This document shows positions 2,769 through 58,294 of a stretch of 64,000 nucleotides of DNA, one piece after another; the first letter of the stretch is position 1; every line of letters starts with the position of its first letter. Both the position numbers and the translations under genes were made by a program. The notes below the pieces were generated by a model. The model saw only the letters and a list, made by a program, of their open reading frames with translations. It was not told where the DNA came from and ran no database searches. This DNA comes from Apostichopus japonicus (Eukaryota > Echinodermata > Holothuroidea > Aspidochirotida > Stichopodidae): contig NC_092571.1 of assembly GCF_037975245.1 (NCBI RefSeq), forward strand, positions 24,938,564 through 25,002,563. The letters are read 5' to 3'.

Positions 2769-3274
2769 GCACACCCTTTAAGGGATCACTTTAGGCACAA
2801 AATTACATTTAATGTGTATAGAGACCGTTAGAAATAAAATGTTAACTATCCTTGTTGTTTTTTCTATATACTATTTTCAATCTTTGAGAAGTGACCCTTT
2901 AAACACGTGAGGCATATTAATGAAAGTGGCTGGACTTCTTGGTCTATGACATATTTAAATTCTGCCTAAACTAACCTTCTGGTGGATCTGAACCCTAGGC
3001 AACAACTCATCAACGACTTAAGCAATATATGGTGTATTAAAATGCAACTAATTCGTTGAAATATGTAGATCGAACAACCAAACCTATGAACACATTTATA
3101 TTCATAGATTTACGCCCATTTTGCGTACGCAGTTCAATGTTTGTACAATTGTTTTGTAAAAAAAATACATGTAAATGATGAATGACTGACTGACTGAATG
3201 AATGAATGACTGACTGAATGAATGAATATATATGAATGCATATATATATACTTTTCTTATTTGCTTACTTACAG
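2769..3274. other. Upstream region and presumed 5' UTR intron of the SLC7 gene
   Basis: AT-rich sequence with a GAAT/GACT microsatellite at 3178-3230. A good 3' splice acceptor (pyrimidine-rich tract then ACAG) ends at 3274, just before the coding exon. This implies a noncoding upstream exon that I could not place. Confidence 0.45.
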
Positions 3275-3299
3275 GTTCAGCGAAATATATATTAAAAGT

Positions 3300-6200
3300 A
3301 TGGATGGCGTGCTCGAGAAAGTCTCTCGTCTCGGTCGTAGAAAGCCTTTCGACTCTTGGGACGTCGATTATAACTTACAAACTCCGCTCAAGCGAAAACT
3401 CTCTACTTTCAGCCTTGTCTTCCTCTGTCTTGGAGAGACACTAGGCTTTGGTATTTTTCTAGTCAATGGTTACGTTTCCAAAGAAGTAGCAGGCCCTGGC
3501 ACTGTCTTGTCCTTCGTTTTGGCTGGATTAATCGCGCTCATTCCTGCAGCGTGTTACGCAGAGTTCGCCGCTAAATTACCTCGTATGGGATCGTCCTACG
3601 ATTATATTTATGTGACAATGGGAGAGTTTATCGCATTTCTAGTTGGATGGAATCTTATCTTGGAGTTTGTTCTGAGAGCCATCTCTATGGCACAGATGTG
3701 TAGTTATACCTTAGATCAACTGACCGACAACGAGATACAAAACTTAACAATCTCTACGTTCCAACAAGGGACGCCGTGGACGTATGATTACATCGTTGAC
3801 TATCCAAACATATTAGGATCAATATGTATCATTGCAGCCATAGCGGTCGTCTATTTTGGCGCCAATTTTACTGCCAAGGTTATTTCGACTTTATTAGTTT
3901 TTAAATTCGCTGTCGTCTGCTTCACGATATATATTGGTATTGTGACCGCAGGTGACACAACCTTTTCTACTCATAAGAGAGGCTTTCTACCCTATGGAAC
4001 CGTTGGGGTAATACGCGGAATTCTTCCGTGTTATTTTGCATTTACGGCGTTCAATACTATCGGTGCGCTTGGAGCGGAAGTTAAAGTTCCTCAAAGACAC
4101 ATTCCGCGTTCCATCACCATTTACATGATTATTAGTGTCATAACGTACGTTTTAAATGCCATTTCGCTTAATTTGGCAGTAAATAGTGAACATATTAAAT
4201 CCGGTCAAGCTTACTTTGAAACATTCAGCATCACAGGGCACAAAAGTCTTGTGTGGGGCAGATATTTTATTGGCTTAGGTTCCGTTTGTACTGTTTTCTC
4301 TTCGGTAATCATCAACATATTTTGTGTTCCAAGGATACTTCTTTCAATGTGTACTGACGGTCTTTTATTCCCGTGCTTAGATGAAGATACATTTGTTGGG
4401 AAACGTCTTAGCTTGAAAGAAACGTTGATATTTGGTTTCATTCTGGTCGTGGTGACCATGTTTATCAAAGTACATGCTTTCGAGCAGTTTCAATCAGCAG
4501 GTATACTTTGTTCTCTGATCCTGGTGAGTGTGGCACTTATAATCCTCCGTTACACTCCTTACCGAGTTGAAGTTATTAAAGTAACTGAAGATGTACCTAC
4601 CAATGAAGACGACATTGAAGATATTTTTGAAGAACCAATCGACAAGGCTGTAGTGACCAAGCAGAGCGATGGTAAAATATCAAATTCACGAGACGCTCTT
4701 TCCAAGCAAGAAACTGATGAGGAAACAAGCACAGCTGAAGAAAATATAGAATTATTTTCTACCGCAGAACCAGACGACCAGCAATTAGGTCTCTTAGAAA
4801 CAGAACTATCGCGTCTATTGCCAAGTAGCGACGACGAAATTGAGGGCAGCAATCCCCTTCAAATGGTGGGAAGGAATTCAAAACTTAACAATAGTAATAT
4901 CGCTTTGAATATTCCAGGGTCGTTAAAGGCAGATTTACATCATGCTTTCGATCCAATTGGACGATTTTCACCGGGAGCTGTTGTTGTGACCTGCTTACTG
5001 TCCACAATCGCGTTCCAAGTTGGATTTGCGGCGGTGGTAACTAGCACAGGGTTTCTCGTCTTATCAAAATCGAAAGTCTGGTCTGTGCTACAGGTGATCC
5101 TATTAGCCCTGTCGCTGGTCTCTGTATTGCCGATATACTTACATTACCAAAGGGAACGACAAAAGGGTATTAGTGAGGTAATCTACAATTTGTATTAAAG
5201 GAATGTTCCAGTGGCTGACAGACATGATTGGTTTACAAAATGGAGGGAAATTTCCCGCATATTTACGTCCGCGAAATCATACTCTAACAACAGAGTGTTA
5301 AAATAATGTGTCTACAAAAAACGAAAAAAAAAACTTTGCATAGAATATTGACAGCTATGCAAACATTCATAATATGTCAAATTCCAAGGATAAATCAATA
5401 AAAAATTTATTGCTATTTTTGTTGTTGTTAACAATTACTATGAACACTCCCGGATACTGGAGTAAGAGGGGTTTATAGCCCTGTCAAAATATGTTACACT
5501 GCAATTAAATATAGTTTGAGTTAGGGAAAAGAATTTGAGAATCGGTTTCGAGTAGCAGTGTGGAATATATTTTTCTTCAAGATGTTAAACTGACTGTCAC
5601 CACTCACTGGAATATCCCTTTAAATATCACAAGATGTAATTAAATAGATCTGCTAACTAATATTAACATTTTGATAAGGAATCGAAAATGACTAGTAAGC
5701 CTAAAAAATATTTCCGTTACTATTTTGGTACTAATATTTGGCAGTAACGTATACGTTTTTGTGATACGGAGAAAGGTAGACGAAAGCTCAAATAAATAAA
5801 AAGAATGAGGGGCGTATATAGATAAATGAGTGAAGGGGAGGCGGGGAGGAGGCTAAGTGTTGGAGCAGGAGGAGGAGGAGGGGACTTCCAGACGCAGACT
5901 CGTGGAAATCAGAAGTAAGTCTACGATCAATACCAACGGGAAAGAAATCAGCCGAAATAGCAATTTTTCCCTTAGAATATTACTTCACAGTAATACCTAC
6001 TTCTGATATGTCATATTGTGTTGAAAATCGCTACGAGAATAAGCCTGTGTGAGAATCATACGAATGCCTTGTGATTTGTACATTAGATCCGACTAGGACT
6101 GTGTGTTAAATCATTTGAAAATCCCTGCTGGAGAACAAGAAGAATCGTAAACGGTTGCAGTTTCTCCCCCGCGCAGAGTATACCTCTCCCAACACTTGCT

Positions 6201-10127: not shown

Positions 10128-10830
10128 CCGTCTACGTCCAGGAATTAAAAAAAAAATTGGAATTATTCTGTGCCTCTTGATTTTGTGATAATTGCTAATT
10201 CTCTCTTCTCCAACCCAGCTTCCTATCAAAATTGAAAATTTCAATCTTATATTCGACTGGAAGTTTGATTGTTCATTGCTTTCAGCGTCATGACTGAATT
10301 TGAGAGATTAACTGCTTGTATACTTTTAAATGATGTGTGCCACATTCTTTTATAAAGCGGTTATTATATGTTTGTTAGACTTAAACGGAACACTGTTAAA
10401 AAAATCCTGAAAAAAATACTACGGGTTCATGCTTTAATCTCTGACACTCAAAAGGAAAACTATCTACGAAATCCTAAAGATATATTACCTTTTCATTACA
10501 CTATTATACCAAACCACTGAAGAACCAGCAAGCAATAATCCCTGGAAACCCAAGCAACTATTCCATACTAGAACATATAGTTAAGAAAATATCTTCTCGT
10601 ACATATCTATTGCCACATATCTTATATTTGAAACCAATCCCTTGATAAACACCCTCATAATCCCTCCAGTACCCCTCTCCTCCCCTTTTAAAAATATTTT
10701 TCATTAATACACCCATGTCATTATAATGTGCAGCAAATTCTTTACGAATTGTAGCCTGAATGGCGTTCAATGGCTCAATAGCCATTACAACACAGTTTGA
10801 AGCTTTCGGTCACAGTAACGCAACACAGTG

Positions 10831-10864
10831 CTATTGTGCAATAAAGGGGATTCCCCTTCTATAT
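10831..10864 (+). promoter_or_regulatory. Candidate promoter of eIF4G copy 1: C/EBP-like and kB-like sites
   Basis: ATTGTGCAAT (10833-10842) fits a C/EBP site, and GGGGATTCCCC (10846-10856) is a perfect kB-type palindrome four bases later. CTATATG (10858-10864) could act as a TATA-like element. The same block is unchanged upstream of copy 2 (55751-55784). It lies about 190 bases before a strong splice donor ending a probable 5' UTR exon. Factor binding is inferred from consensus only. Confidence 0.5.
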
Positions 10865-10899
10865 GTAGCATCCATTTCGACAGTGTTTTTTTTTTTTTT

Positions 10900-11053
10900 T
10901 CGTCAAAGTATATACCCACAATATGATGTCAAAAATACAACGTAGCATTCCGGCACTTGTAGTATTTCTACCACAGTGAACTAGTTCTTGTTAATCCAGA
11001 GATCAGGTACTATATGCCATTGTTTTCATTAACAAGTGAACTTCAAAGTTCAG
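10900..11053 (+). other. Probable 5' UTR exon 1 of eIF4G copy 1
   Basis: Ends at CAG/GTAAGT (exon end 11053), a near-perfect donor that is conserved in copy 2 (55980). The next acceptor is CATAG at 11834-11838. The start is not defined: the transcription start is assumed to follow the TATA-like element. Confidence 0.5.
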
Positions 11054-11847
11054 GTAAGTCAAAATTTAGATTCTTCCATTTGCGGCAGCTCAAACTTATA
11101 CTGCCTGCCTTTGATCCCAGACATGTTTACTGACCTAGGCCTAAGCGTATAGGCCTACCTAGGTATCTTGGTGGGGTAAATTATGTCGCCGTTACCGACT
11201 TTGAACCGCTAACTATTACTCATTATCTATAGATGTTACATGCCTAGCTTTTGCATTACTAGCTAGATTCACATTCATTTTGATAAAAGTAGAAACAATA
11301 GATAAAATACTGGCCAATTTTGGAGGGAGTAACTTCGTCACATGGTGCAGTCTACTGAATAGATTGTATGCATCAATACTTTATAATTATATCAAATTAC
11401 TAACTTGTTATCAACACAATGAGTTTTTACAATACATTAAATTATATGTTCCTATAGACACTTTTTTTAGACCTTTTTTTAGCTGACACTTTTTTTAGCT
11501 GCTAGACCTCAAGTCTTCAAGGTCAACTTTGCTGCAAAATAAGTCCCACAGAGATATTCCCTTGACATTATCACAACTTGACGGCATTGAGGTGTTTACG
11601 TTTATTCAGTGAAATCCTTGTTTTTATTCATTTGGTTTAACCACTATCTATAAAAGTTTGTCTCATACAGAAAATTAAGTTCTCAAGAAACACTAAGTTT
11701 TTACAAGTAATGGTCCAAATTTTCAAGGACTTTACAAAAATGATGTTTATTGATTAGCCTGATGGGTATATCATCCACAGTTCCAAGTGAAATTCAAGAA
11801 ACTCTAAGATATTTAGTATTGATCATTGTCTGCCATAGGTGTTGTAG

Positions 11848-12940
11848 ATGGATTCCTTTGAGGAATTTCTCAGAGAGGTCACTCCTCACAACATCCAGCA
11901 TCAAGTCTCAATACTCAAGATACAGTCCTTGCTCTGGTCAGAGGATACACTGGCTCAGATTGTCAACTGCATTTTTGAAAAGGTAACATCAAAATATATA
12001 TATACCATCTTCTTCCTATATATATGGTGGAGGTGACCTTTTAATTTGTTCAAGGACCTAGAGTGTACCTGCAATCTGTAGGTTGTTATGATCAATGTGA
12101 ACTCAGAGACTTTTGGGAAGTACATGCATCACAAGTAGTTATAAAGGTCCTCAGGTCAGACCTGCTAACCTGTCTCTCAATCTTGTCCTGCAAAGGCATT
12201 TTGCTCCATGTTGCTACTGCTGGTATGAACATACCCAGAAATCAGAATTTACTGGAAGAATTAGCACATCAACATCAAAGAGCATCTATAGGAAATGACC
12301 TTGTAGTAAAGGAATAAATTCAGATGTTGTGCTGCCTCACTTCGTTAAAGAAACGTACTGAAACCTCATCTTATGCGTCAAGCATTCTTCAATGTTAAAC
12401 AATAATTATTTTGTTCATTTGTTTTTTATTTCTTTTTTTCCTTTCTCTCCCGCACCTTGAGCACCCTTCCGGGTGGATATGCACCCCTAATAAATCACCA
12501 TTATTATTATTATCATTTATTAAAAATTCAAGTAAGTGTGACTAGATGATATCCTATTTTCGACTTGCTCAAGTCTTTCCACACAGGTACAGTACATATT
12601 CCATAACCAATAAAGGTGATTGGATTTGCTTCTCCCGTAAACCCTAAGTTATAGTGTTAGATTCAAGTTTTCTGGCCGGACCCGCCAACAAGCACTCTAT
12701 CACAGAAACTAAACTTCATCACAGGGCAATGTCTAGGGTGATACAAAGACCAAAAAAAAAAAAAAAATGATATGACCGGAAGGACCGAATCCCATTTTTC
12801 ACTAAAAAATCCTTTTAAAGCCATATACAGAGGGTTACATACCTTTCTTTTTTTGGATTCACAGGTCTCGGCTGAACCATCGGACCTAATCTATTTGTAT
12901 GTTTATACATGCAAGATGATGCTTGAAGTAAGTCTAGGGC

Positions 12941-12999
<59 letters not shown>

Positions 13000-15900
13000 T
13001 TCCAAATATACTAGCTGGACCAAATAGTTCTCACTCACAGTGGAATATTCAATACCTCATTCATTTAAATAATTTTGATGTAAAATTTTCCAGCAAGCTA
13101 TTAGCTATACATTATACTGTTTACTTTTAGGTGCTATGTGCTGGTGATTTTTTTCATTCCCTTCGTGTTTGCTGTTTATACCTTTTAGCTTATTGCACAG
13201 AATCACACAACAAATAATCCGGAATAAACAACTAGGGTTTGTCCTTTCTGATTTAACCTCTAAAAAATTGTTTTTCCCCCATTCTCTTCATGTTTCCTGT
13301 TTTGACAGTTTGAAGTTAAAAACATTGGTTCCAGCACAGAGGAGACAACTGTGACCTTTGAAGATGTGATGCAATCAAGAGCTGGATTTCATTTAACAGA
13401 GATACTTTAGAAGCAGAAAAAAGGAGAGCAAATGGTAAAAGCACTGCTTGTTGAGTTTACTATTACGTGCACTTATAAGTAGCTAAATTGATAGCAGCAG
13501 CAGGGGTGTTGTGGGGGGGGGGGAGCCAGAAGAGGATTGAATCAACATGAGGAGGGGGAAGACTTTGAGGGGCTGTTTATTATGAAGCTTTATGGGAGCA
13601 AGACAGAAAATCACTTTGAATCTTCCCAACAAAGAGAATTGTGTGGATTCAGCTTCTCAATTAAATTAAGTGTTTAATTATTTTTCAATGAAAGGCCAAC
13701 CTATTAAAATAACAAGAGCAATTTTCATAGAATATACTCACATACACACAACAATTGGGCAATTTGCAATGTTAAAAGTCGCATAAGAGTACTTTTCGGT
13801 AGTTTCAAAAGATTGAATCAAAGGGAGAGAAAGGGTGGGGGGAGGGTGAGAGATGAGGACAAACTCTGCAGGAAAGTGTGTAATAAAATATATTGTCGCA
13901 CCAGGAAACTAAGTAATCACTATTTTCAAAACTGTTTTTGTGGTACTGATAAATATTTCTGTTTTTGGGATATGTAAAGTAAAATAGTTAGACAACACTT
14001 TTATGTGCATCATCACTACATGTGACTGTTTCGGAAACATGAGTGATGGCCACATGTTAACCCCTACCAGCTAAATGGGGAAAGCTGTGTAATGTGGACT
14101 ACATACTAGAAAGTACCAACAGTTAATGTCAATGTACCAATTTCACGATATGGAAAGGGGAGCCGTCTCTCAATTAGACCCCTCCCCTAGGATGAACTGT
14201 CCATCTCTTCAATCAAAGCAAATGTGGTAATCCTATGCTAGGAACCCTTTATACGGTAATAGAAATTCGAACACCAACCTGAGACCTCAGTTCTACTCGT
14301 TCAGCAAAGAGATTAATTAAATCTAATCTTTTTTTCTTTAAACATTTCTCACAGAAGTCGATGGCTGGCAAGGAAGCTGGGAATGGACTGGGTGCTGTTT
14401 GTTCTTTTCTCTCCCAGCTTTTTGTTCAAGATGTCCTGTCCTCGGATACTCTCCTGTTTTGTATCCATGCACTGATGGCGCATAACACAGAGATTACTTG
14501 GCAATGCTTGTCCAAAATACTGAAGAACTCATTCGTACACCTTGAAAGTCTTGGAACGGTATGTAAGACAGAGTGGGTCTAAGATACCCATTAATAAACG
14601 CTATATAAGACAGAAGAGGAAAAAATGTATTAATTGAAAGATAATGTTGACATTCATTTGACATGCAACTATGTATGTTATAGTCCTTAAGCTGATACAC
14701 CAGAGTATGTGGCATTGAGTTGATTCATTGAAAGGAACAATTTGGAAAAAGTAATTATCTGTTTGCAAGTTATATTGTAGCCTAAAAATACATATATTTA
14801 TATAAATGTATGCATATATTCCTTGCTCACATGTCCCTTTTCCCTGTCCAATTTCCTCTCACTCCTCCATTGCCCTATCATGCCACGCCCCCTCCTTTTA
14901 TATTTACTCCTCCATCTCCCATATCACACCCCCCTTATGCTACATTTCTTCCTCCCTTCTCCACTGCCTCACCCCCCTGCTCTAGTTCCTCCTCCCTTCT
15001 TTCTAGCCTCACCACCCCTCTGCTAAAATTCCCTTCTATCTACTCCCCTGCCTCTTCTCCCTTCTGCTGTTTTTCCTCCTCTCTCCTCTCCCTTCCTCGT
15101 CCCTCTTCTGTTCTATTTCCTCAACCTTTTCATATGCCTTCTCTCTGTCCTCATTCTATTTCCGCCGCCTTTTCTCATTCGTTCTCCCCTGCCTTCACCT
15201 CCCCTACTGCTCTTTATCCTCATTGTGCATGACCATCTACAGTATATGCTCTTTTATTTAAGAATTTCCTACAGGTGTGTTTTGTCGAACAATAAAATAT
15301 TCTTTTGACACATCCTTACATTATTTTCCAGTCGCATCTATTTAAACGTGTCTTCCAGAGGATTTATGACAAGATTCAGGGAAAGCATTTCTCTGTTCAA
15401 ACCAGATTCATGCTCTGTGATTTGAATGACCTTGAAGAGGTAAGGATTAATATTTCATACATTAACATGTGGTCATACTGTGTACACTCTGAACAGTTAA
15501 AATTGACCATACCATCCTACGCCCCTCAGTATTAGATTTATAGCAAGTGCGGAGTGTAAATGGATTTTTCATTCCCCTATCACCCTAGTAACTATTTTTG
15601 CACCTTTATCCATAGCCAATTCTTCTTTTCTTAGCTGTATCATCTCCATTGTTCAGTCTATTTTTACTCTGTTCAATGTTCACCAGTCCAATTTAGTTGT
15701 CTGTCTGTCTGTCTCATTTTAAATATGTCCATAATCTGTTTTACGTTCAGTTTGCCCTTGACGAAGATCCTGCTAGGATTGAAACGTCAGGCCTATGCCC
15801 TTTCATTATTTCATATTGCAAGGAGGAGGTTACACAACTGTTCAAGCCAATAATTCCTTTGCCCATTCAAATTTTATTTGACCTTTAACTGTGTACAATA

Positions 15901-18900
15901 GTACGACATTAACAAGGAAATAATAATGAAGTAAGTTACATTATAACTCATGATTAATTTAACTTATCATTCATTAACTGTTGTTACATCATGTACGTGT
16001 AGGGCAGTGTAAAATTAGACGATGTTATCATATAAAAACATTTTCAATCTGTTCTACTCATTTAAATATTATGCTGATTGACTCTGATGATGTTTCTTTT
16101 TGTTTTTATCTTTTTTTTTGGGGGGGGGGGGAGGGAGGGGGAGAGTGGAGACTATCTAAAGAAATGTAGACGCTGGCCGGATTTAAATTGAAGTTAATAT
16201 CAGGGACCTGCCAGTCACACTTGGAAAAACTATAAAGTAAACGAAATAATTTAATAAAGACGACACAGTCCGTGCGTTACTTTAACAAAATATATATCCG
16301 TATGCTCTCGTGGTCTTCACGGAAGTCCTTGCCTCAGTTTACAGAGGCAAGACTTTTACATAGTTCATTGCACATTGTGAATTGGGTATAATTAGTTGGC
16401 AAGCTTTTAAAATAGTTAGTCAAATTAGCTAGTTGCCTTTAACCCAGTCGTTTATAATTGAATGCAGTTTTCAGTCGTTATTTTACTTTCTACAGAAATA
16501 TACAGGTTTGCCCCTTTGGCATTGTTAAATATTGTCACTGAGTATGTAAATTATTGATTTTCTGATATTATTGTATTCATGTAATCAGGTATGTATCTAT
16601 TAAAATAAATACAGTTGATAAGTTTTTTTCACTTGTATATTTTTATTTCATGATGCTGAAATGAAACATTTTAAACATTGAAATCATTTGTGAAAGAAAC
16701 AGTCTTGGATTTTGCTGTGCCTGATGTGCTAGTTTATAGAAGGACTATCATTTTTAATTTCATCACATTTAATTTATCATTTTCATTTCTAAAATTGCAG
16801 AAAAATCAAGAAACCGTGGAGGCTCAGTTTCACACTTTTGACAAGATCAGAAGACAACAACCAATGAGTGTAAATCACCAGCAAGCACTGTTGTACAGAA
16901 TGCAACCTCAAGCAGGACAAATGAATTCAATGGTGAGTAAAAGAAACTGGTCTAGGATATCATGTATGCCAGTAATTACCAGTTATTAATAGATAGAAAC
17001 AGTAATGCTACTTAAGGATTTTAAAATTTGCGACCCTGGGACGCAACACCTCAACAATGTTTGTGTCAGCTCAGAAAACATGCGTCCCTATACAGTCTGC
17101 CGTAAAAACAATAATTGGTTGTAAAGACCCCTGACGGTACATGGGCTTGTGCGCAATGGAAGCGTAAATACCGTGTTAGGTTTCTAATGTGCACAAAAAA
17201 AGTCAAATGATGTAACGTAAGTAATAAACAAAAAACAAAATGATAGTCAGGTTGTGAATTGGAAATATTACTGTAGACCATTTACCATATATGTAGGCCT
17301 GGATGGCATGTGAAGGGTCCTCTAGTATCCCACCAAAGGTTTGTACTTGTTATTTCAAGCTCAACAGACTATTAATCCACCCTCTCCCCTCTCCATATAG
17401 TCAGTAATCAGGTGGCAAGTGAAGGGTCCACCCTCTAGTATACCACCAAAGGTTTGTATTCAAGCTCAACAGACTGTTAATAGTCCACCCTCTCCCTCCT
17501 CATATAGTCAGTTATCAGGTGGCAAGTGTAGGGTCCACCTTCTAGTATCCCACCAAAGGTTTGTACTTGTTATTTCAAGCTCAACAGACCATTAATCCAC
17601 CCTCTCCCTTCTCATATTATGGAAAAGTCTGCATTATTTGAAAAGCGAAAGAACAACCACATCAATCAGCTCCAACTTTTGCAGTAGAGACAAAGTCTGC
17701 ATATTAAACGCATGTTTTCTTTCTTCAAATTCATAACCAGCAAGATCCCTCCTATCCACAGGGCAATAACAGACCGTCTAAAGAGAGAAAGATCATACCG
17801 GGGCCTTCTGCCTCTCAGGAGGAGACGCTTAGGCGTTCAGAGAACGCCTGGAAACCATACTCTAAGAAGAAGAAGGCACCAGAAGGAAAACATGATGATG
17901 AAGTGAGTCTCTTTCTTCATGCCAAAGCTGGTGGTTCAATTTGCAGCCATACTTTTCTCATGCTATCCAATAAGCCTGAACAGAGAATGCCACAATAGCC
18001 TTGAGAAAATATTCTGCTCTGTGAAACAAACATCATCCTACTAGCTTAAACTTTCCACATGTTGTTATCATAGATAATAAACCTATTGTTATTTTTGTAT
18101 TAGTTATGTACTTGGCCTAATTGTATAAGTTATATAATAACATGTAGGATAAGGCTGAAGATGCTAGTCATTTAATTATTAGGCGTGCTACAAGCTAATT
18201 GCACCCTTTGGCGAAATAATGTGTTGACAAATGGAATAAATTTAGTTAGAATGTATTTACGAAAGGTAATTATAAGCAATTTTAGGAAGTTCACAAAACT
18301 GCCTTTTTTGAATTGATTTTGAAGAAAAAAGCTGTAGTTAATTTTTTCTTCGTTTTTCCTCCCCAACAGGAATTATTGAGAAGATTCAAAAGTATCCTCA
18401 ACAAACTCACTCCTCAAAATTTCCAGAAGTTGATGGACCAAACCATGCAGTTACCCATCAACTCAGAGGAAAGATTGACAGGGGTCACTGACCTTGTATT
18501 TAAGAAGGTTGGTCATTTATTTTTCTCTATGTATATAAAATATTGCAAGGAATATCAGACCTTGTAGCCTAAGTTTTGCAATAGAACCTATTTAAGTACA
18601 AGAAGTTTCTTTTGGCAGAGTTATGATGATTTTAATGAGCATATTTAAAGGTAAGATAGTCATCTGAAAGGCAATGTGTTACTTCTGATACTTCTCAAAA
18701 ATTGTACCAGGAACAATAATCCATTAGATGGTTCACTTCCACTATCTGTTGGCCACAACATTGTTTGGATTGTATTATAAGGGTTAAAGTCTTCCTTATT
18801 TGGAGCAGTTGTAACTTAATAGATTTCTAAGTTTTGCTGAGGGCTGCCGCCCATGTCTGTGCAAACATTACGTGGCTCGGTCGGTCGGAATGGTCATCAG

Positions 18901-21900
18901 TTTAATTAGTCACCAATTAGGTTCTTGGTCATTAGAATGCTCATATCTGTAGAGTTTCTATTGTCACAAAGGCTCTCGTCAATTTAACAAAGCAAAAATG
19001 GTGCATTTGCTTCAACTGAAATTTGGCCTTTAAAGGGGACACAAGCCCAACCATCATTTTTATCTTATATGACAGAAGATCTTTGTGAAGATCAACTCCC
19101 CCAAACCAGCTTAGCAAAATGCTGCTATGTTTGATAGATGTCGTAGTTTACAAGTCACATATCCTGGGGCGGACATTTTGTTAATCTGTCATTTCATAGT
19201 GCTACTACTAGGATCTCAAACCTTTCACTTTCTTTATGTTTGTCTTTTTAATTTTTTCCAGGTAAAATGTTATAATTGTAGACACTGAAACCATTGCCAT
19301 CATTTAGGTCATGTTAAGAGCTTCCACTTTTTAGATTTGACATTATTAGAAAACCCATCTTGTTTACATAAAAATATTACTTTTTTAATAAATAAAGAAG
19401 TATATAAGAAGACAAAAAACATGAAGCACACATGGCTCAATGATGCCATATTTTAGACTGTTCTGAAGAAACGTGAACAATTTGTGATTATCTCCCGAAT
19501 GGAATAACATTTTGTTTTCCTTTAGCTGTTTGGGGAAGTTGTTCGTGAAAGTTATCTCTATCACATATACTAAGAATGATGGTTGGGTTGTGTCTCTTGG
19601 CTGTCAAGGGTGGGATGATAAGGGTGCGTGTGGTGGTGGGGGAGTGGGAGAGGTTTATTCATGACTGTTATTTCTGTCACTAATAGTGATAGCTGGAAGT
19701 GTGTTTCCATTAAAAGTTGTAACTATCAATCTTTGAAATATTTCAAAATATGGAAAGAACTGATTTTTTTTTGTTCGCTTAACCATAACTTTTCCTCAGG
19801 ATTGATTGAAATCACCGATCCATGTTTGTTTTCAGGCAATAATGGAACCTGATTTCAGCCAGGCATATGCAAACATGTGCAGAGTCATGCAAAATGTAAG
19901 TTAATTTTGTGAACCATTGAACCTAGTCATAATTCAATAACATCACCATGACAGAAAGGTAGCATGATGAATATACTGCACGACCTCTCTAACCTTTCTG
20001 GGCTCTACTGTTGCACTTTCCCATCTACCTAGCCAATTAAGTGGTAACAGTTTAGCACTGCCCCTCCCCTCCCATTCACCCACCTCCAGGTCTATGCCCC
20101 ATCACCACTCCTTACGACTCTACCTTTTTGTGAGGTGTAGCAGCCTATTCTGGTAGCAATTGCCATTGCAAGGAATCACTCTAGTACAATCATTGCTGTA
20201 CAATCCTTACAGTACATCTTTCCTTGTATGATCATTGCTTGTACAATCGTTTTTACGATCTAGATCTTTTCTTGTGCGAACTCACTGTTTGCTTCAAGGT
20301 ATAGTACCATGTTTGAAAGCCAAATAGACAGAAAGAAGATAAAAAACTTTCATAAAGTCATTTTTACGTTATTCATCAAAACTTACAAAACAAAGACAAA
20401 AGTCTAGTTTTTAATGAAATGAAAGACACCAGTGTTGTGTGTAGTATATCTAGGGAATAAAACTGTCGTCTTGGTGTCAAACTGTTGCTGGAATCAATAA
20501 CTTGCCATCTGCTTCACCGTGAGTTTGTCAGAAACTCTACAAGTTTTCACTCTCCAGCAGCTCATTAAAGATTTTATTGTTTCCCCTTTGTTTTCTCTAG
20601 ATTGAGGTGACTAAGGCGGATGGTGGCACAGTGCAATTCAGAAAACTGATTATAATTAAATGTCAGAAACAGTTTGAGCGACAGAGAAGTAATGAACAAA
20701 TGGAGATGGAGAAGAAGAGGATCGCAGCTCTGTCTGTAAGACATCTCCTACCCACCTGATTTCTTCTGTATGATTTAAAGAAAGGAATTAAGTTACAACC
20801 ATCGTTACAAACTTGTCATTTCATTCACGATTCGGAGTCTTTGATGGAGAAATAGGTCTATGTCATTTCTACGTCTGTGATGGACTAGGTCAAACTGGCC
20901 CCCAAAAATGTAACTCCGTTTTGAAGATACCATTCGAAAGTTTTCTTCTGTACATTTCTTTGCATCTCTCCTTGAAAAAAGTCAAATAATGGATTTTCAT
21001 CTGAACCAGATTTACTTCAAATCTGTTTCTCCCAGACAAAAAGATGTGAAACATTTCCCGACCATTTTGATTATCTCACTCATTCAATGGTTTGTTGGAC
21101 CGCTGTCACTAGACTTGTTGCATTGTTTGAGATGCCAAGAATATCTGTAATTCATCTCTTTTATCCTTCACATTTTTCGCCTTTTCAATTACGTGTTAAA
21201 GGAAAAAGAACAAGAAGAAGCCCTAGCAGAATTTGAGCACCAACAGATGATTGCTAAGAAACAGATTATTGGCAATATCCGATTCATCGGAGAACTCTTC
21301 AAACTATCTCTGCTGACAAAGAAGATTATGCAAGGCTGCATCTTCCTGTTACTAAAGGCTAACGATGAAGAGTCCTTAGAGTGCGTGTCCGTGCTGGTAT
21401 CGACTGTCGGACACTGTCTTGACCATCAAAAGGGCAAGGCAGGTTTTCTGAAAATCTATTATGGGAAAGTGTGGGGAGGACGAGGGGAAGAGGGAGGGGA
21501 AGGGGATGATGTGGCAAGCAGTGTTCAATGAAGGAAGAGAGCAAACTGTTTTGAGAAACTTGAATGATGGTGGGAAGGTGTATTGTGTAGGTTGCTTCAG
21601 TTTGGGGTTATTAGATCAAATGAGGAGGTTGGTTTAGGGTAGAGATGATAACAGTTTGATTAAACTAAGGCGTTAATTTTTTTGGTGTCCAAGTGTGTGC
21701 AGCTTGTTTAAGCAGAAAAGTTTGAGCTGATTTTGTAAACTTTTTCAATGCTATTTCATAGAAGAATGTTGTAGTTAATTTGTTTCGTAGGCTCATCTAG
21801 TGAAAGCTCACTTCAAAAAGTAAGTAGCACAGAAAAACCCCGATGTTTTCCATTTTTCAGTTGGCAAGTGTGAAATTCTGATCTGAATGAAGCTATATAA

Positions 21901-24900
21901 TTATCAGGGTGGGGGAAGTCAGACCAATATGTTTATCCGTATGCAATTTTAATTACACTTGGAAATTATGGACTTGATAATCCACTTATTTACTGTTGGA
22001 AGGGCTAATCAAAGCAATGGTATCGAAATTCCTGTTCTTACCTTCGTGTTGCAGGCATTAATGGATCAGATCCTCAACCAAGTAGACAAAATTATCAAAG
22101 AAAAGAAAGTTTCCTCTGGGATACGATTTATGCTGCAAGATCTTAAGGATCTACGAGAGGTAAGGTGGATATTACTACATTTCATCAACAGGGTTTTGTC
22201 TTGTTTTGATTTGGCAAGCACAAGTTCTGGAATTTAAAATTCTACAGGAAATAACTTATCTGACATGTGTAGTGGGACCAACAAATGACATGAACAGAAA
22301 AGTCCTCTGAACACTTTTATTTGCAACGGTTCGGCAACAGCACACTGGGTATGATTAGCCAGTGAAATGTACAAATCTTACAGTAACACAATAACTTAAA
22401 CAAGAGGCGGTGGAGGAATGCGATGCAACAGAACTTTAGCTGTGAGTCTCACATAGCTGTGGTCTTGAAATCACAAAGGAATAAAGTAAAATTTGCAGGT
22501 AAGTTACAACGGAAATCTTGAGACATAGAGTGTGTTATATGTTCAATGTGCAAATGGAAAGAGAGCGAGACAATGTGCTTTTGGAGATAAAACCTGAAAC
22601 TGCTTGTTATCCTTCCCGAGTGACCCGATAACGCAAAAAGTAAACAAATCGTGGAGCCTGACATCCTGCTTAGTTGCCTAGCAACAAGTTAAAATAGATC
22701 CTATTTCCCCACACATGGCTAGCTATGCAAGCTGAATTTGTAATGATTTATCACAGTGTTTGTATACAGATTCTTAGCATTGGAAACATGGTCCAAACAA
22801 ACATGAACTTATTGCTTGCAAATTGTAAAGCAAAAGGTTGTTCCCATTCTGACCTGTATGTTTTGGTTAACGTTATTTAAACGCAAAAGTTATTTTTAAA
22901 GTTTAACATTTTCTTCATATAAACCGAAGAAAGTACTCAGGACTAAAGCTCCAACCCTCGTGGTATGATTCCCCTTTGTAAGAATCCTATCTAGTAATGG
23001 AGGGCAGAGAAACTCTTAATGTGCAAACTTTGGTTTCCATTTGATAAAAGATTGAGACCTTATGCATGATAAGAGACAAACTCAACTATATACAATCTGC
23101 TTGTACTATTGTTGGATTGTACTGTTTGTTTGTATTTGTTGTACTATTTGTTTATTTGTATTTGTTTGTAGTATTATCTGTTAGGGGCTTGTGCTTGAAG
23201 GACATTGTGTCATGGGAAAATTCTGCATTTGTTTGAAAGCGAAGAAAACGCATCATTTAGCTCCAACTTTTGCAGTAGAGACCCGCCAGAGCTTCAGAGG
23301 TTGCTTGTATTGGTTTATTAACGATGCCTTTAATTTGTAGATCTCTTAGTCTGCATTGTCTCATAGTTCTCCCATGATTACGGCAGTTCCAGGCAAGGCT
23401 TTAGCCACTGAAATATGCAGTACCAAGTGGTCCTATTCATAGCCTAGATGACAAACTTGTGGCCTTGTGGATCGTGTCTATGGCCATGCTCTGGCTGTTT
23501 GTCGCTGGCACAAAGCCTTGGTTACACAGCAGTTGTGCTTTACTTTGAAATTGGGACAATGTAGAAAGAATCCATGAAACTGATCTAAGCAGACACTCAA
23601 ATATGTACATGTAAATTGTACAGATTTATTTGTAAATAAGAAACAATGGTATTGTCGCGGTATGTAAACCAGAAATAAGGACATGAACAAGTAGTAGAAT
23701 TAAACGGTATTTTAGATCTTCAACTGGCTAGATATATCTACTGAGTACAGTGAGTGTGTCAGGGAAAAGTTAGCTTGAGAGAACTGTGCTAAGCACGGCT
23801 CCTACAGGTTGAATCACACTGACTAATATGGGTGAAAGTTACATCTTATATACTCTTGACAATGGATTACAGAGGATGGGACAGTAAGTTCCTCTACCCA
23901 CATATTTAACTTTCACCTGAAACAGAAGTTAAGCTACTAAGAAATGACCCCACTATGACATCAATGGGAATGACATCATACTGAAAGTTATTTTATTGGA
24001 AGACATCAGATATTCGGTGCACAGAAAGGTGTAGGGTTTCTGTTGTAGAGAGTTACTCTGGAGGTTAAAGTGTAAGTGATTTACTGGGACTTAAGAGGTT
24101 TGAAAGTATGTTATTATGTTTATGGTTTGTAAATAGAAACTGTTAGTCATCTTTCTGGGAAGTGTGACATAGGAGGACTTCCTTTCCTGTCTGTGCTACT
24201 AGCTAAGAGTTTGTAAAGGTAAACCTAGGGTAAGAGAATGGGAAGTTAATTGTAAAATGCTCTCTGTTATAGTATTGAACTTGTCACACATGGGTAATAA
24301 AAACAACTTTTATGAGAATAATAAGTGGGCCTTTGACTAACTGATGAAGGTTGAATATAGTTGAATGAACTAAACACTTCATCATTAGTGAAAGCTCACT
24401 TTGACTCAGCTGGTTTCTGACATTAGTGAAACCATACAGCCTTAGGTCTACCGGGTCGAGGCAGTGATTATGCATAATCCCATTTATGCTTCTACCGATG
24501 TGTGTTGGCGACGACATTGTAGAACACACTTGCTTGATGGTACCATTTTGATATATTACAGAACAACTGGAAGCCAAGGCGAAATGAAGCCAAGCCAGTT
24601 ATGATCGACCAGATTAGAAAGGAAGCCGAGATGGAAAAGCAAAGGAGAGAACAGAAGCAACTTACAGCTCGTTTAGCTCCCCAACATTGGTCAAATAGAA
24701 GGCTGGGGTGCATGGAGAAATACCAGGACGATGGATGGAATACTGTCGCAGGAAACAGGAGTACCAAACAAAACGTTATTGACAACCCAGCCAAGCTTAA
24801 TATTACAAGGGTGAGTGTTGATTAAACTTGTTATAATTATGTGGCAAGGTATGCACTTCAGTTATATTTCATAGGCATGAGTGTATTTTGACCCTGCTAA

Positions 24901-27900
24901 ACCTACCCACATATACACAATACACCATATCCTCAAACTGCCATATTCCCTGAGCCCATAAAAAACCATGTGCCATGTACCATTTTGTAAATGAAATGGG
25001 ATCTCCCCCCCCCCCAATCCCACTAGGTGACCCTCTTGTGTTCCACCAGTTGGAAGTTTCTTTATTTCACTGTTGTTTTCACATTTAGTATGTTTGGTGC
25101 ATAATCCTTCTTTGTTACTCTTCAGCAAACCATTGATGATAATGTACAGTTGGGTCCAGGTGGCAGACCGGGCTCCTTAGGGGGCTGGGGCAAAGGCAGA
25201 AGTGGAGGAGGAGGGAAGTCGTCCTCGGGTTCCTCGGAGGCTAAAATTTCTCAGGGTAACAGGTTCATGATGCTCGGAGAGGATAAACAACAATCAAGGT
25301 AATGTATTAAAGAGTGCAGAGTAGAGTAGGAATTTAAAATGTGGATGCCAAAATGCAATATTGAATTACAAAATAAAGAACAAGGGCAAACAGAATAGGT
25401 AATTGTACTGGGTATGTCAACTGGATTTATTGAAACTGAGCTCAAACTGGATATATTGTACCATGGTTTCAATTTTTGCTGCAAGTTAACCCCCCCCCCA
25501 CCCCCAAATGATGCATAGTGGAAAATAGTTAACACTTCATCAATTTAAAGGTATAAAAAAAATGTTAAATATTGAAACAATGCATTTCAGTTAAAGAATA
25601 ATACAGTAGGAATGATCTAAATGAGAATTTTTTTTTTGAAGAATCATTTGTAAAATAAACAAGCAGATCTTAGCAAGGTTCTGTAGATGGACGCTGGATA
25701 CCTACAGCATTCTACAGACAAAGTAGAACTTCCTAAGTTTGTGGGATTGCTCATAAAAGGGCAGCAATCTACATCTTGAGGAAGGACCCAATGGGGTATT
25801 AGGCAGCAAAAAGTTATGGTTCTACAAGACCATATACACACAGCTTTTTCTCAACTCATGTTAACCCTGCTTTTGGCTTCATTATCCAGTGTTCAGATAT
25901 TGATGAGAATCGATGAATAATTGGAGACCCTGTATAATGTTCCTTTACTCTTCCCTATCCCAGTATACCCTCTGTCCTGACCCACCCTAATTTTGCACCA
26001 GTTTAAATGCAGCAATTGAAATATTTTCTTCCTGGTATGCTTGTAGGTCCATGTTACCACCATCAGCGAGGGATAACAAGGGCAGGTCATCTTCCGGCTC
26101 CAAGCGGTCCAGAGAGAGGGAGATTGATCGTTCGAGAGAGAGACAGTCGGCGATAGCGGACACGCAGCGATTCACAGGGTCACTGAAGTCAAGGTCTAAC
26201 GAACTTGACAGAAACCAGGAAAAGAGTAAGTAGATAAAAGGAAAGTAGTAGGAGGGATGAGGGGTGGTTGTCTAGCTAATCCGTGTAAGGGGCGTTTGTC
26301 TAGCTAATCCGTGTGTGATACAGAATATCAAGTTAGCAATTGTCAAGACCATGTTCGAAAGGATCTCAACTGTTAGTGTACAGGAGGTAAAATGACAGTA
26401 AGCATATGCCATATGATAAACTAGGCTTGTTGTTATGACTGCAAAGTGATACTTTCATATTTAAACACAAATATGGTCGACTCTCGCATGGATCCAAGAA
26501 TTGAGCAAAGGTGAGTACATCTCACTGCTCTTTGTTGGTTATGTGATGAGTGATTCCGTCTGGCGAACATCTTAGATTGTGGTCTGGAAATGTTTTGCAC
26601 AAGGTGTAGAGTCGTAAAAAAAAGTTTCCATTCAAATAGACAAGCCTGCAGGAATGATCTTATGAACAGCATGGTTTTGGGAGAAGGAACATCATACATC
26701 AATGGGACTAGAATACCGATGACAAAATTTAAACAGTCCTCCTGTAGTACACAACAAGTAGATATTCTGTTTCATAACACATTTGAATGTGTTTTGGATC
26801 TTAGTTTTTGCATTCGATTATTTTGTCTATTTCTGTTTTCTTTTTCAGGAGTAGAGCCACCTGCTGCTGTAGCCTTATCAGAAGAGGAGTATGAGAAGAG
26901 GTCCAGGTCCACTATAAAGGAATTTGTCAGCATCAAAGATTTCAAGGTGAGAAGAGATCATAAATGTAGGCATTCAATGTCTACTTCCGACCCCACCGCT
27001 CTCCTCAACTCGACAAAAATATTCAGCATAACTTTTTTTCTAATAGGGTTGTGAATGAGTGGAACGGTTTGCCTGAGAAAGTTGTACTTGCAAGTAGTGT
27101 CAATGGGTTTAAGAATGCTTTAGACAAGCACTTTAAGCATTGTAATCGGGTCTGAGTGTTGGGTCTTCAGTTTTTTTCTCTCCTATAGGGTCCTTGATGG
27201 GGACTTATGTGTCCCTCCTGATCCATTTTTTCTACTAGACTAAACTAAAAACAATATTCCGAGCCCACAGTAAAGAAAATCAATGAAGGCTATTTATACT
27301 TGTATGCCAATTGGATTTAAGGATGGCCTGCCATCCCTTTGAATGGTCTTTACTAGATGTGCCTATTCCAAGCTGTTATCACAAACACTTAGTTAGCATC
27401 AGACCCCTTGGCTGGGCTGTAAGTAAATCCCAGGTTGGGTTCAAATGATGCATCAGAGGTGACCATGTGCTTCTGTTTTGTACATGAAAGAAAATGTAAC
27501 AGTCTGCTACCAGAGCCCTCCATTTTTGCAGGTCCTGCCCAAAGTTGTGTGAGAGTGTGATTAGAGAGTTATTCCATTGTATGCATAGTAATGTAGTCTT
27601 TATTATGGATATATATTATGTATGTATGTATATTAGATCCTCCTGCAAGCAGGAACTCGCGAAGAAGCCTCATTGGCTTATCAAGGCCGCAAGCTGACCG
27701 AAGTCAGTCTTTTACATTCATATTTAACGTCCATGATTATGAATTGTTAATTGTCAACAACTCTGTAACTGGACGACATACATTAATCTGTGAGTGACTC
27801 GAACCGGGGACCTTATGATTGAAAGCCTTTATTATAGGCCTTTAAATTTCCATAAGACAGGACATCATCAGAGAAGCAATTTAAAGTCTGCTATTATCGT

Positions 27901-30900
27901 GACAAGGTTTTATTGGTAAATGTATGTAATTGGTATCAAGATCCAATGAGCTGCCCAGCAAAATCCACAATGGTAAAAGTTACAGGGGATTCTATCCTGG
28001 AACATTTTCTATCTTATGTCTGGAAGGTTTCTTTCTTTAGGACATGCTGGATTGAGGTCTTTTGGATACAAGGGGTGGTACAAAACTGTGGCAAGAGCTT
28101 TTGTTGGTGCTGCATATTTCACTGGAGTATAATGTTATCAGGCGTCACACAGCAGAAATGCAAGGGCAATGAAATAAGTTCAAGCATATATAGCATATTT
28201 TGCCCACTGAAACATAAAATATTTTCAGTCTATTATGGGAAATAAAATTCATAGATCTTACAACTGCAACACATTATATCATGTTTCCTTCCTTCATGCT
28301 TTCGCAAATTGTATCCTTGAATCCCGATTGCCCGTATGTGAACACATGCCTTTAGAAAATCATTACTCGAGATAGGAATACACTAGAGAGCTTCCCATAG
28401 CTTTATTTTGCACATAAGACAGCCTGCATCAATAAACAACCTTTTTCCGAGGGGATCACATGGACCTTTTTTTTTTTTTTTGTCTTCAAAGATTTGTTTA
28501 CATTCAAAAAACTGGTCGTTTTGACCTTTTTTTCCAAAAAATCGTGAGAACAGTGAAAACTTTCAAGTCAACTGACCTTATCTCATACAACTAGCTAAGA
28601 CATACAAGGAATCAAATCAGGAGCCTCACAGGCATATGTAGAGAGATGGCTCTATATTTGGGGAAAATATTTCAAAAAATAACGTTTTTCGGTCTATGTT
28701 ACGGCCAAAAAACGGTAAACTTTCCGAAAATATTTCTCCCGAATGCCTCACCCTACAGAAAAATTTTTTAGCTCTCCAGAAGCGCCACACTGAACTTCTA
28801 GTCTACATAGAAACAATTTAGCAATAGCGCCTCCACTTTTTGAGTAATCCCTAGCAATTCAACTCAAGCATTTCTACGGTATAGAATTTCGGTCAACCAC
28901 AACCACAGTTGATATGCTCGCGTAGTATCTGGCTGAAGTTGGCGAACAATAAGAGCGACCAATAGTAGCGAACAATAAGAGCGACCAATAAGGGCGACCA
29001 AAAAATGCTAGAAAGTGCAAATGATACTACGGAGTTGTGTAGTGGCCTTCGTAATGGGCCATGTGGCAAAAATGATGTGTTTAAAGCAAATTGAATGATC
29101 GAATGCTTTCAATCGATTGCAATTAGGAGGGAAAGACAGGCTTTTGGACGTTCCATGCATTAAATAATTTATTATAAGAGATTCAAACCCGACAAACTCG
29201 TAATTATGGAACGGGGTATGAAATATCCCCAAAGTCAGGGTATGGCCTAACTCATTATCGTGGTAAAGCAAAATTATAGCTCTTAAAATATCAGACCTGC
29301 CCCGAATATCAGCGAAAAGCGTAAGTTTGGGGTAAAAGATAACATATTTGGAAACAAAGCTTAATGGGAAACATGCAGAAGGGTGGGGTGAACGTTAAAG
29401 CTGACATTACACTCTACCAAAGTATGCCAACAACCGTGAGGGACGATGTCGGGCAGGGGGTTATTAACAATTAACTCGGCAACTGAAAGTAAAACGTAGC
29501 ATATATATACTGTTGGCTAACAAATCAAATCTGTAACTCAGTATCATTGGGGAGCAAAAACGTAGCTGACGTCACCAGCTATCACCCCATACCAACAAAC
29601 CTCGGGGGACAGTATCATTTAAGGTGTTATTAACACCCAAACTCGACGCAAAGTATCATCTACAGTTTAAATACGCTTTTTCAACACGATTTTTGGCTAA
29701 CAAATCAAATCTGTAACTCAGTATCATTGGGGGCCCCAAAGTAGCTGACATCACAAGCTATCACCCCATACCAACAAACCTCGGGGGACGGTATCATTTA
29801 GGGTGTTATTAACACCCAAACTCGACGCAAAGTCTCATTCACAGTTTATATACGGTTTTTCAACACGATTTTTGGCTAACAAATCAAATCTGTAACTCAG
29901 TATCATTGGGGTCCCCATGGTAGCTGACGTCACCCTCTATCACACCATACCAACAAACCTCGGGGGACGGTATCATTTAGGGTGTTATTAACACCCAAAC
30001 TCGACGCAAAGTCGCATTTACAGTTTATATACGGTTTTTCAACACGATTTTGGCTAACAAATCATATCTGTAACTCAGTATCATTGGGGTCCCCAAGGTA
30101 GCTGACGTCACCAGCTATCACCCCATACCAACAATCCTCGGGGGACGGTATCATTTAGGGTGTTATTAACACCCAAACTCGACGAAAAGTATCATTTACA
30201 GTTTATATACGGTTTTCAACACGATTTTTAGCTAACAAATCAAATCTGTAACTCAGTATCATTGGGGTCCCCAAAGTAGCTGACGTCACCCTCTATCACC
30301 CCATGCCAACAAACATCGGGGACGGTATCATTTAAGGTGTTATTAACACCCAAACTCAACGCAAAGTCCCATTTACAGTTTATATACGGTTTTTCAACAC
30401 GATTTTTGGCTAACAAATCAAATCTGTAACTCAGTATCATTGGGGTCCCCAAGGTAGCTGACGTCACCAGCTATCACCCCATACCAACAAACCTCGGGGG
30501 ACGGTATCATTTAGGGTGTTATTAACACCAAAACTCGACGCAAAGTCTCATTCACAATTTATATACGTTTTTTCAACACGATTTTTGGCTAACAAATCAA
30601 ATCTGTAACTCAGTATCATTGGGGTCCCCATGGTAGCTGACGTCACCCTCTATCACCCCATACCAACAAACCTCGGGGACGGTATCATTTAGGGTGTTAT
30701 TAACACCCAAACTCAACGAAAAGTCCCATTTACAGTTTATATACGGTTTTTCAACACGAATTTTGGCTAACAAATCAAATCTGTAACTCAGTATCATTGG
30801 GGTCCCCAAAGTAGCTGACGTCACCCTCTATCACCCCATACCAACAAACCTCGGGGGACGGTATCATTTAAGGTGTTATTAACACCCAAACTCGGCGAAA

Positions 30901-33900
30901 AGTATCATTTACAGTTTAAATACGGTTTTTCAACACGAATTTTGGCTAACAAATCAAATCTGTAACTCAGTATCATTGGGGTCCCCAAGGTAACTGACGT
31001 CACCAGCTATCACCCCATACCAACAAACCTCGGGGGACGGTATCATTAAGGGTGTTATTAACACCCAAACTCGACGAAAAGTATCATTTACAGTTTATAT
31101 ACGGTTTTCAACACGATTTTTGGCTAACAAATCAAATCTGTAACTCAGTATCATTGGGGTCCCCAAAGTAGCTGACGTCACCCTCTATCACCCCATACCA
31201 ACAAACCTCGGGGGACAGTATCATTTAGGGTGTTATTAACACCCAAACTCGACGAAAAGTATCATCTACAGTTTAAATGAGGTTTTTCAACACGATTTTT
31301 GGCTAACAAATCAAATCTGTAACTCAGTATCATTGGGGTCCCCAAGGTAGCTGACGTCACCAGCTATCACCCCATACCAACAAACCTCGGGGGACGGTAT
31401 CATTTAGGGTGTTATTAACACCAAAACTCGACGCAAAGTCTCATTCACAATTTATATACGTTTTTTCAACACGATTTTTGGCTAACAAATCAAATCTGTA
31501 ACTCAGTATCATTGGGGTCCCCATGGTAGCTGACGTCACCCTCTATCACCCCATACCAACAAACCTCGGGGACGGTATCATTTAGGGTGTTATTAACACC
31601 CAAACTCAACGAAAAGTCCCATTTACAGTTTATATACGGTTTTTCAACACGAATTTTGGCTAACAAATCAAATCTGTAACTCAGTATCATTGGGGTCCCC
31701 AAAGTAGCTGACGTCACCCTCTATCACCCCATACCAACAAACCTCGGGGGACGGTATCATTTAAGGTGTTATTAACACCCAAACTCGGCGAAAAGTATCA
31801 TTTACAGTTTATATACGGTTTTTCAACACGAATTTTGGCTAACAAATCAAATCTGTAACTCAGTATCATTGGGGTCCCCAAAGTAGCTGACGTCACCCTC
31901 TATCACCCCATACCAACAAACCTCGGGGGACGGTATCATTTAAGGTGTTATTAACACCCAAACTCGGCGAAAAGTATCATTTACAGTTTAAATACGGTTT
32001 TTCAACACGAATTTTGGCTAACAAATCAAATCTGTAACTCAGTATCATTGGGGTCCCCAAGGTAACTGACGTCACCAGCTATCACCCCATACCAACAAAC
32101 CTCGGGGGACGGTATCATTAAGGGTGTTATTAACACCCAAACTCGACGAAAAGTATCATTTACAGTTTAAATGAGGTTTTTCAACACGATTTTTGGCTAA
32201 CAAATCAAGTCTGTAACTCAGTATCATTGGGGTCCCCATGGTAGCTGACGTCACCCTCTATCACCCCATACCAACAAACCTCGGGGGACGGTATCATTTA
32301 GGGTGTTATTAACACCCAAACTCGACGAAAAGTATCATCTACAGTTTAAATGAGGTTTTTCAACACGATTTTTGGCTAACAAATCAAGTCTGTAACTCAG
32401 TATCATTGGGGTCCCCATGGTAGCTGACGTCACCCTCTTTCACCCCATACCAACACACCTCGGGGGACGGTATCATTTAGGGTGTTATTAACACCCAAAC
32501 TCGACGAAAAGTATCATCTACAGTTTAAATGAGGTTTTACAACACGATTTTTGGCTAACAAATCAAGTCTGTAACTCAGTATCATTGAGGTCCCCATGGT
32601 AGCTGACGTCACCCTCTTTCACCCCATACCAACACACCTCGGGGGACGGTATCATTTAGGGTGTTATTAACACCCAAACTCGACGAAAAGTATCATCTAC
32701 AGTTTAAATGAGGTTTTTCAACACGATTTTTGGCTAACAAATCAAATCTGTAACTCAGTATCATTAGGGTCCCAAAAGTAGCTGACGTCACCAGCTATCA
32801 CCCCATGCCAACAAACCTCGGGGACGGTATCATTTAGGGTGTTATTAACACCCAAACTCGACACAAAGTCGCATTTACAGTTTATATACGGTTTTTCAAC
32901 ACGATTTTGGCTAACAAATCAAATCTGTAACTCAGTATCATTGGGGTCCCCAAAGTAGCTGACGTCACCAGCTATCACCCCATACCAACAAACCTCGGGG
33001 GACGGTAACATTTAGGGTGTTATTAACACCAAAACTCGACGCAAAGTCTCATTCACAATTTACATACGTTTTTTCAACACGATTTTTGGCTAACAAATCA
33101 AATCTGTAACTCAGTATCATTGGGGTCCCCATGGTAGCTGACGTCACCCTCTATCACCCCATACCAACAAACCACGGGTTACGGTATCATTTAGGGTGTT
33201 ATTAACACCCAAACTCGACGCAAAGTATCATCTACAGTTTAAATACGGTTTTCAACACGAATTTTGGCTAACAAATCAAATCTGTAACTCAGTATCATTG
33301 GGGTCCCCAAGGTAGCTGACGTCACCAGCTATCACCCCATACCAACAAACATCGGGGGACGGTATCATTTAAGGTGTTATTAACACCCAAACTCGACACA
33401 AAGTCGCATTTACAGTTTATATACGTTTTTTCAACACGATTTTTGGCTAACAAATCAAATCTGTAACTCAGTATCATCAGGGAGCAAAAACGTAGCTGAC
33501 GTCACCAGCTATCACCCCATACCAACAAACCTCGGGGACGGTATCATTTAGGGTGTTATTAACACCCAAACTCGGCGAAAAGTCCCATTTACAGTTTATA
33601 TACGGTTTTTCAACACGAATTTTGGCTAACAAATCAAATCTGTAACTCAGTATCATTGGGGTCCCCAAAGTAGCTGACGTCACCCTCTATCACCCCATAC
33701 CAACAAACATCGGGGGACAGTATCATTTAAGGTGTTATTAACACCCAAACTCAACGCAAAGTCCCATTTACAGTTTATATACGGTTTTTCAACACGATAT
33801 TTGGCTAACAAATCAAATCTGTAACTCAGTATCATTGGGGAGCAAAAACGTAGCTGACGTCACCCTCTACCACCCCTTACCAACAAACCTCGGGGTCGGT

Positions 33901-58245: not shown

Positions 58246-58294
<49 letters not shown>

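Follow-up and report, generated by a model that had tools for sequence, protein, structure and literature searches.

A probably chimeric, eIF4E-free eIF4G paralog in a three-gene eIF4G cluster of an echinoderm

The window (the whole stretch of DNA that was analysed, 64,000 nucleotides) and the DNA that follows it were found to hold three eIF4G-type genes, G', P and G, within ~123 kb. In our preferred reading, G' is probably a chimeric eIF4G paralog that is free of the eIF4E-binding exon and has a layout like that of DAP5, and an extra MIF4G domain at its 5' end is probably not made as a whole domain. This extra domain, which is encoded by six exons (module A) with a counterpart at the 5' end of P (module B), was probably lost recently. 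The coordinates of all features are given in Table 1; coordinates marked reg are window coordinates that run on past 64000 through the flanking DNA, which was read to C11:25080000.

Organization of the three genes

The third gene of the cluster, G, is a canonical eIF4G with N-terminal exons, an eIF4E-binding exon (QYDRTFLLQF), MIF4G, MA3 and W2. The module was not found in G, nor in the 6.5 kb read upstream of it. The exon plan of G' follows that of G, and all 16 of the G' exons with counterparts in G (x1-x16) were open. The domains of G' along the window were in canonical eIF4G order, namely MIF4G (2.5e-44), MA3 (1.2e-24) and W2 (2.2e-15), where the MA3 and W2 profile scores were computed without the 47009 exon. 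The gene continues to 48357 and does not end at 24810, as the earlier note had it. Two 179-bp satellite arrays, of 24.8 and 17.5 copies and mutually inverted, were present in the intron between x10 and x11 (29513-33935 and 38723-41836).

The six exons upstream of this core, which had been described in the earlier note, proved to be real and to lie where it had placed them; their borders are AG/GT and every one is in phase 0. Exon 6 had been assigned wholly to the module; we found that only its first 18 codons (16801-16854) belong there, and that the remainder (16855-16932) corresponds to the second half of N1, an N-terminal exon of G, with 96% identity over 26 residues. Exons N2-N8 of G are missing from G'. 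A canonical eIF4G has an eIF4E-binding motif (YxxxxL-hydrophobic) upstream of its MIF4G; G' gave no match to exon N8. The eIF4E-binding exon occurred at four places, one in G, three in P and none in G'. Decayed pieces of the missing exons persist in the intron between exon 6 and x1. In particular, three pieces of 16855-17740, lying in a 107-bp repeat, matched the end of exon N4 and the first part of its intron by blastn (450-515, 555-604 and 662-760 of this query; E 5e-12, 2e-4 and 5e-12), which points to the loss of exons that were formerly there.

Table 1. Features of the locus (window coordinates unless prefixed by C11)
Feature	Coordinates	Strand	Remarks
Window	C11:24938564-25002563		within 671.6 Mb genome
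G' (chimeric eIF4G paralog)	11848-48357	+	inside window
Module A exon 1	11848-11982	+	ends CIFEK; phase 0; ATG immediately 3' of an AG
Module A exon 2	12865-12927	+	phase 0
Module A exon 3	13309-13434	+	126 nt, phase 0; in-frame TAG at own codon 34
Module A exon 4	14355-14558	+	KSMAGKEAG...LESLGT; phase 0
Module A exon 5	15332-15439	+	SHLFKRVFQ...LNDLEE; phase 0
Fusion exon 6	16801-16932	+	phase 0; module part and eIF4G N-terminal part, in frame
Tandem repeat in exon 6-x1 intron	17354-17608	+	period 107 bp
G' x1	17741-17902	+	acceptor 6 nt away from that in G
G' x2	18370-18507	+	canonical MIF4G exon, open
G' x3	19836-19895	+	canonical MIF4G exon, open
G' x4	20601-20735	+	canonical MIF4G exon, open
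G' x5	21202-21438	+	canonical MIF4G exon, open; GC donor
G' x6	22055-22159	+	canonical MIF4G exon, open
G' x7	24562-24810	+	IDQI linker
G' x8	25126-25298	+	
G' x9	26047-26225	+	
G' x10	26849-26946	+	
G' x11	42840-43012	+	MA3 and W2 exons (x11-x14)
G' x12	44393-44597	+	
G' x13	45353-45451	+	
G' x14	45965-46111	+	
G' further MA3/W2 exon	47009-47090	+	by eye
G' further MA3/W2 exon	47425-47571	+	by eye
G' further MA3/W2 exon	48179-48357	+	by eye; TGA stop at 48357
P (divergent eIF4G-like gene)	56586-64000, then C11:25002564-25023309	+	mostly outside window
Module B exon 1	56586-56720	+	5' end of P
Module B exon 2	58106-58168	+	5' end of P
Module B exon 3	58392-58508	+	5' end of P
Module B exon 4	59427-59630	+	5' end of P
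Module B exon 5	60515-60637	+	5' end of P
Module B exon 6	60852-60950	+	5' end of P
P N2	61154-61255	+	eIF4G-like N-terminal exon; borders by eye
P N3	62618-62711	+	eIF4G-like N-terminal exon; borders by eye
P N4	63419-63555	+	eIF4G-like N-terminal exon; borders by eye
G (canonical eIF4G)	C11:25046920-25073510	-	44-71 kb past window end, orientation opposite to G'

In gene P, module B (56586-60950) contained no stop. The old donor of its exon 5 was deleted; the possibility that module B is a dead copy for this reason was rejected, as a new donor 18 nt on preserves the frame. Exon 6 of module B continues in frame, phase 0 to phase 0, into N2, the first of a series of exons copied from G (N2-N4 and a portion of N5). 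Compared with G, N2 of P shows a net loss from 61 to 34 codons that keeps the frame, and N4 has lost its old acceptor and has a possible new in-frame one. No in-frame donor was seen by eye in the N5 copy; thus, the exon chain of P is not closed. Further downstream, P contained three pairs of a leader exon and an eIF4E-binding exon (YDRVFLL, YSRDFLL and YSRDFLL at reg 66419, 69089 and 73372), each pair forming, by eye, a unit that begins and ends in phase 0. The three joined eIF4E-binding exons matched PF21140 (3.1e-11), and the first one alone matched eIF4G1 (5t46, 5.1e-7). The MA3 and W2 exons of P reach reg 84746, with the gene end at C11:25.023 Mb, and this part matched eIF4G1 (1ug3) at 2.7e-23 versus 0.28 for DAP5. 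No MIF4G other than module B was found in P by exon-wise searches, which can miss weak matches. We tentatively consider that P might be a working rearranged eIF4G with an N-terminal MIF4G, three eIF4E-binding exons and MA3-W2, beside the eIF4E-free G'; one scaffold would then have split into multi-eIF4E, eIF4E-free and canonical forms in an echinoderm.

Several other features of the locus and genome were recorded. An ORF of 658 aa on the plus strand at 3222-5195, upstream of module A, matched an amino acid permease (PF13520, 3.6e-31), and ORFs on the minus strand at 52157-53123, between G' and module B, resembled by eye a remnant of a LINE-type reverse transcriptase. Mitochondrial COX1 translated sensibly under the echinoderm code (for example, AAA as N in LLTDRNINTTFF), so the host is taken to be an echinoderm. 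In addition to contig C35, of 16,099 bp, a second contig carried pieces of COX1 in five distinct matches (C29:14745-31219).

The module as a MIF4G domain and the origin of G'

The module exons were joined by hand for the profile search, with X at the TAG of module A. The view that they encode a MIF4G domain held when compared with PF02854, for which the curated cut-off is 30.8 bits: module A scored 52.1 bits (E 8.9e-14, positions 6-202 of 203) and module B 43.8 bits (E 3.1e-11, positions 6-202). Local alignment of module B with the locus's own MIF4G gave a score of 148, which was 20 standard deviations above shuffles (best of 1000 shuffles, 64), and hhalign of the module with the canonical domain gave a probability of 97 and E 8.5e-11. 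The proposed match between the intron positions was also borne out, as the module introns fell at columns 47, 68, 136 and 211 and the canonical ones at columns 47, 68, 123 and 212. Introns 1, 2 and 4 were thus no more than one column from their canonical counterparts, while the third differed by 13 columns and fell within a gapped linker; intron 5 comes after NDLEE / KDLRE. The chance of such shared sites was modelled as ~3e-4 by position and 4e-6 when phase was added.

The preference expressed earlier for eIF4G over Paip1 as the relative of the module agrees with the PDB matches, since module B matched four distinct PDB sequences (E <= 10), all of which were eIF4G1 or eIF4GII. From the profile, the alignments, these matches and the shared intron plan, the module is best described as a diverged eIF4G-type MIF4G that is closest to eIF4G1/eIF4GII. 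Two other origins were considered and rejected. With module B as the query, no Paip1 match was found among PDB sequences up to E 10, and the identity of the module to DAP5 was only 19-20%, with the PDB matches all to eIF4G1/eIF4GII. In a tree of seven MIF4G rows, the module branch had 3.43 changes per column, for which long-branch joins are flagged. Other MIF4G matches in the same genome, on C20 and C13, were UPF2-like and NCBP1-like by eye and were left out.

The module had been attributed to a duplication within the eIF4G gene itself. We reject a local intragenic duplication because the module is shared with P and because its identity to either local MIF4G is just 24-26%, when the two local MIF4Gs are 88% identical to each other. 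A self-comparison of 141 kb instead revealed segmental duplication: 10239-16854 matched 54171-60905 (modules A and B, flank included), and 16855-17140, 17691-28314 and 42804-50181 matched G on the minus strand. A genome-wide exon search with the module (E <= 10) gave 13 matches, 12 of which were A or B and the remaining one the N1 half-exon in G. By these comparisons, G' is a chimera composed of a P-type 5' end, half of the N1 exon of G, and then the MIF4G-MA3-W2 part of G. Noncoding substitutions amounted to 11.5% between A and B, 5.5-11.1% between G' and G by region, and 8.4% between the N exon region of P and G, which suggests exchanges of similar age. Judged by its low identity to either MIF4G, the module is far older than the exchanges among G', P and G, and it is likely to have come long ago from some eIF4G MIF4G. 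As for the order of events, a segmental duplication may have brought the P-type 5' end (module A) to the front of a G duplicate. Subsequent deletions would have joined module exon 6 to half of N1 and removed N2-N8 of this duplicate, including the eIF4E-binding site.

An assembly artefact, in which allelic or misjoined haplotypes have been set side by side, would agree with copies that are 5-11% diverged in noncoding DNA and with satellite arrays inside G' that are hard to assemble. We regard this as very improbable: the copies occur in both orientations and differ from one another in gene content, the MA3-W2 part of P was found once, and some exons of G are absent from G'. Additionally, the divergence of the copies appears greater than would be expected of alleles.

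Constraint, decay and the possible product of G'

When the six upstream exons and x1-x14 were joined, the resulting chain of 20 exons contained a single stop, the TAG in exon 3, which is codon 100 of the chain; module B has AAG at the same site. A plain transcript would therefore end after 99 codons. The claim that the module joins the eIF4G core thus stands in part: the two are in frame, with the core exons running from 17741, and the TAG, which had gone unmentioned, interrupts them. As a consequence, the two MIF4G domains of the proposed tandem protein do not share one uninterrupted frame, and the TAG blocks such a protein unless exon 3 is skipped; a true double-domain protein from the G' copy as read here is unlikely.

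A working tandem-MIF4G eIF4G could arise from G' by skipping of exon 3, phase 0 to 0, or from a TAG-free allele. The frame is continuous on either side of this symmetric exon, and the module frame is intact despite ~11.5% noncoding divergence. Skipping, however, would take 42 codons out of the interior of the domain, the nonsense codon is present in the one sequence analysed, and the module is also the one MIF4G that the searches revealed in P, so that the tandem layout is not its sole use. We consider a working tandem protein improbable.

The gapped alignments contained four exon indels (9, 3, 3 and 3 bases), all of which kept the frame, while 49 of 318 noncoding indels were multiples of three. 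Frame-breaking exon indels numbered 0 in each of A/B, x1-x7 and x8-x16, against an expectation of ~8-10 for a pair with one neutral member (~10 for x1-x7 alone); the contrast was weak for N2-N5 of P and G (P 0.04), and the indel counts omit the alignment-breaking deletions at the module B exon-5 donor, the P N4 acceptor and N2-N8 of G'. Nonsynonymous changes per site were fewer than noncoding ones in A/B (26/533 sites vs 272/2362; p 1e-6) and in x8-x16 (14/1090 sites vs 546/7671; p 8e-18). Nonetheless, the counts for A/B (26, with 33.8 expected) and x1-x7 (58, with 51.7 expected) fit one neutral and one constrained copy, so that simple decay of the 5' half of G' may be under way; the counts for N2-N5 of P and G also fit one neutral copy. 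For A/B alone, nonsynonymous versus synonymous change was not significant (p 0.10).

The latter counts bear on the possibility that G' is a decaying pseudogene, with module A dead, the core unused and only G (and P) at work. The TAG in exon 3, the GC donor of x5, the loss of the original x1 acceptor and the relaxation of nonsynonymous change in x1-x7 (w 0.57) agree with decay, and 10 of the 13 replacements polarised by human sequences fell on G', with 14 more left unpolarised. The 16 open exons and the lack of frame-breaking indels in x1-x7 argue against it, as does the finding that x11-x16 carried 13 nonsynonymous changes versus 33 expected with one neutral copy (P 7e-5), although a portion of this pattern could equally be produced by gene conversion between G' and G. 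In x8-x10, synonymous sites were also low in change (1 change at ~103 sites), which suggests that gene conversion may help to keep the 3' part of G' alike. We regard the pseudogene reading as possible, if doubtful. On a fair reading of these counts, module A and the 5' half of G' remained coding once duplicated and have since become relaxed or newly broken, whereas the 3' half continues to be constrained or converted.

Under the preferred reading of G' as a chimeric, eIF4E-free paralog, its putative translation would either begin 3' of exon 3 or use an exon-3-skipped mRNA. If functional at all, G' would most likely act as a scaffold free of eIF4E that is translated from the first of these starts, and this product might hold eIF4A together with eIF3 in the absence of the cap-binding protein.

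Relation to known MIF4G proteins and significance

The MIF4G and IDQI linker of G' matched human eIF4G1 (6zmw, E 7.3e-85), and MA3 and W2 follow as in eIF4G1/eIF4G3. G' differs from a canonical eIF4G in that it lacks the N-terminal region and the eIF4E-binding exon, and in the extra, diverged, stop-bearing MIF4G in front. DAP5 (eIF4G2, NAT1 or p97) has the layout MIF4G-MA3-W2, which G' shares, without an eIF4E site; the likeness is in layout and not in sequence. The G' MIF4G was 52% identical to eIF4G1 versus 39% to DAP5, and its match to DAP5 (4iul, E 1.1e-36) was weaker than that to eIF4G1, so it is not nearer to DAP5. DAP5 cannot bind eIF4E or PABP, according to the extract of PMC6387300. 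The loss of the eIF4E site in G', with remnants in its intron, looks lineage-specific, unlike the case of DAP5.

Paip1, like the module, has a MIF4G outside canonical eIF4G; in contrast to module B, the canonical domain of G' did match Paip1, at 1.7e-6. More than one MIF4G per polypeptide is also found in UPF2, which carries three in tandem according to the abstract of PMC3936715. UPF2 belongs to another family, whereas both domains of G' are of the eIF4G type and one is interrupted. No eIF4G with two MIF4G domains and no duplicated eIF4G appeared among the literature matches listed, as judged from titles and abstract beginnings drawn mostly from outside the subscription literature. According to the extract of PMC6387300, the known translation factors of the sea urchin have one unique gene each; set against that statement, a three-gene echinoderm cluster looks new.

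In the echinoderm described here, the parts of eIF4G are reshuffled among three eIF4G-type genes. If these genes are expressed, they would offer a direct test of what is needed in vivo (the eIF4E site, or the number of MIF4G domains and where they lie), and would show that an eIF4E site was lost independently of DAP5. If they are not expressed, the locus is still a clear case of a core translation gene that was duplicated, fused and decayed.
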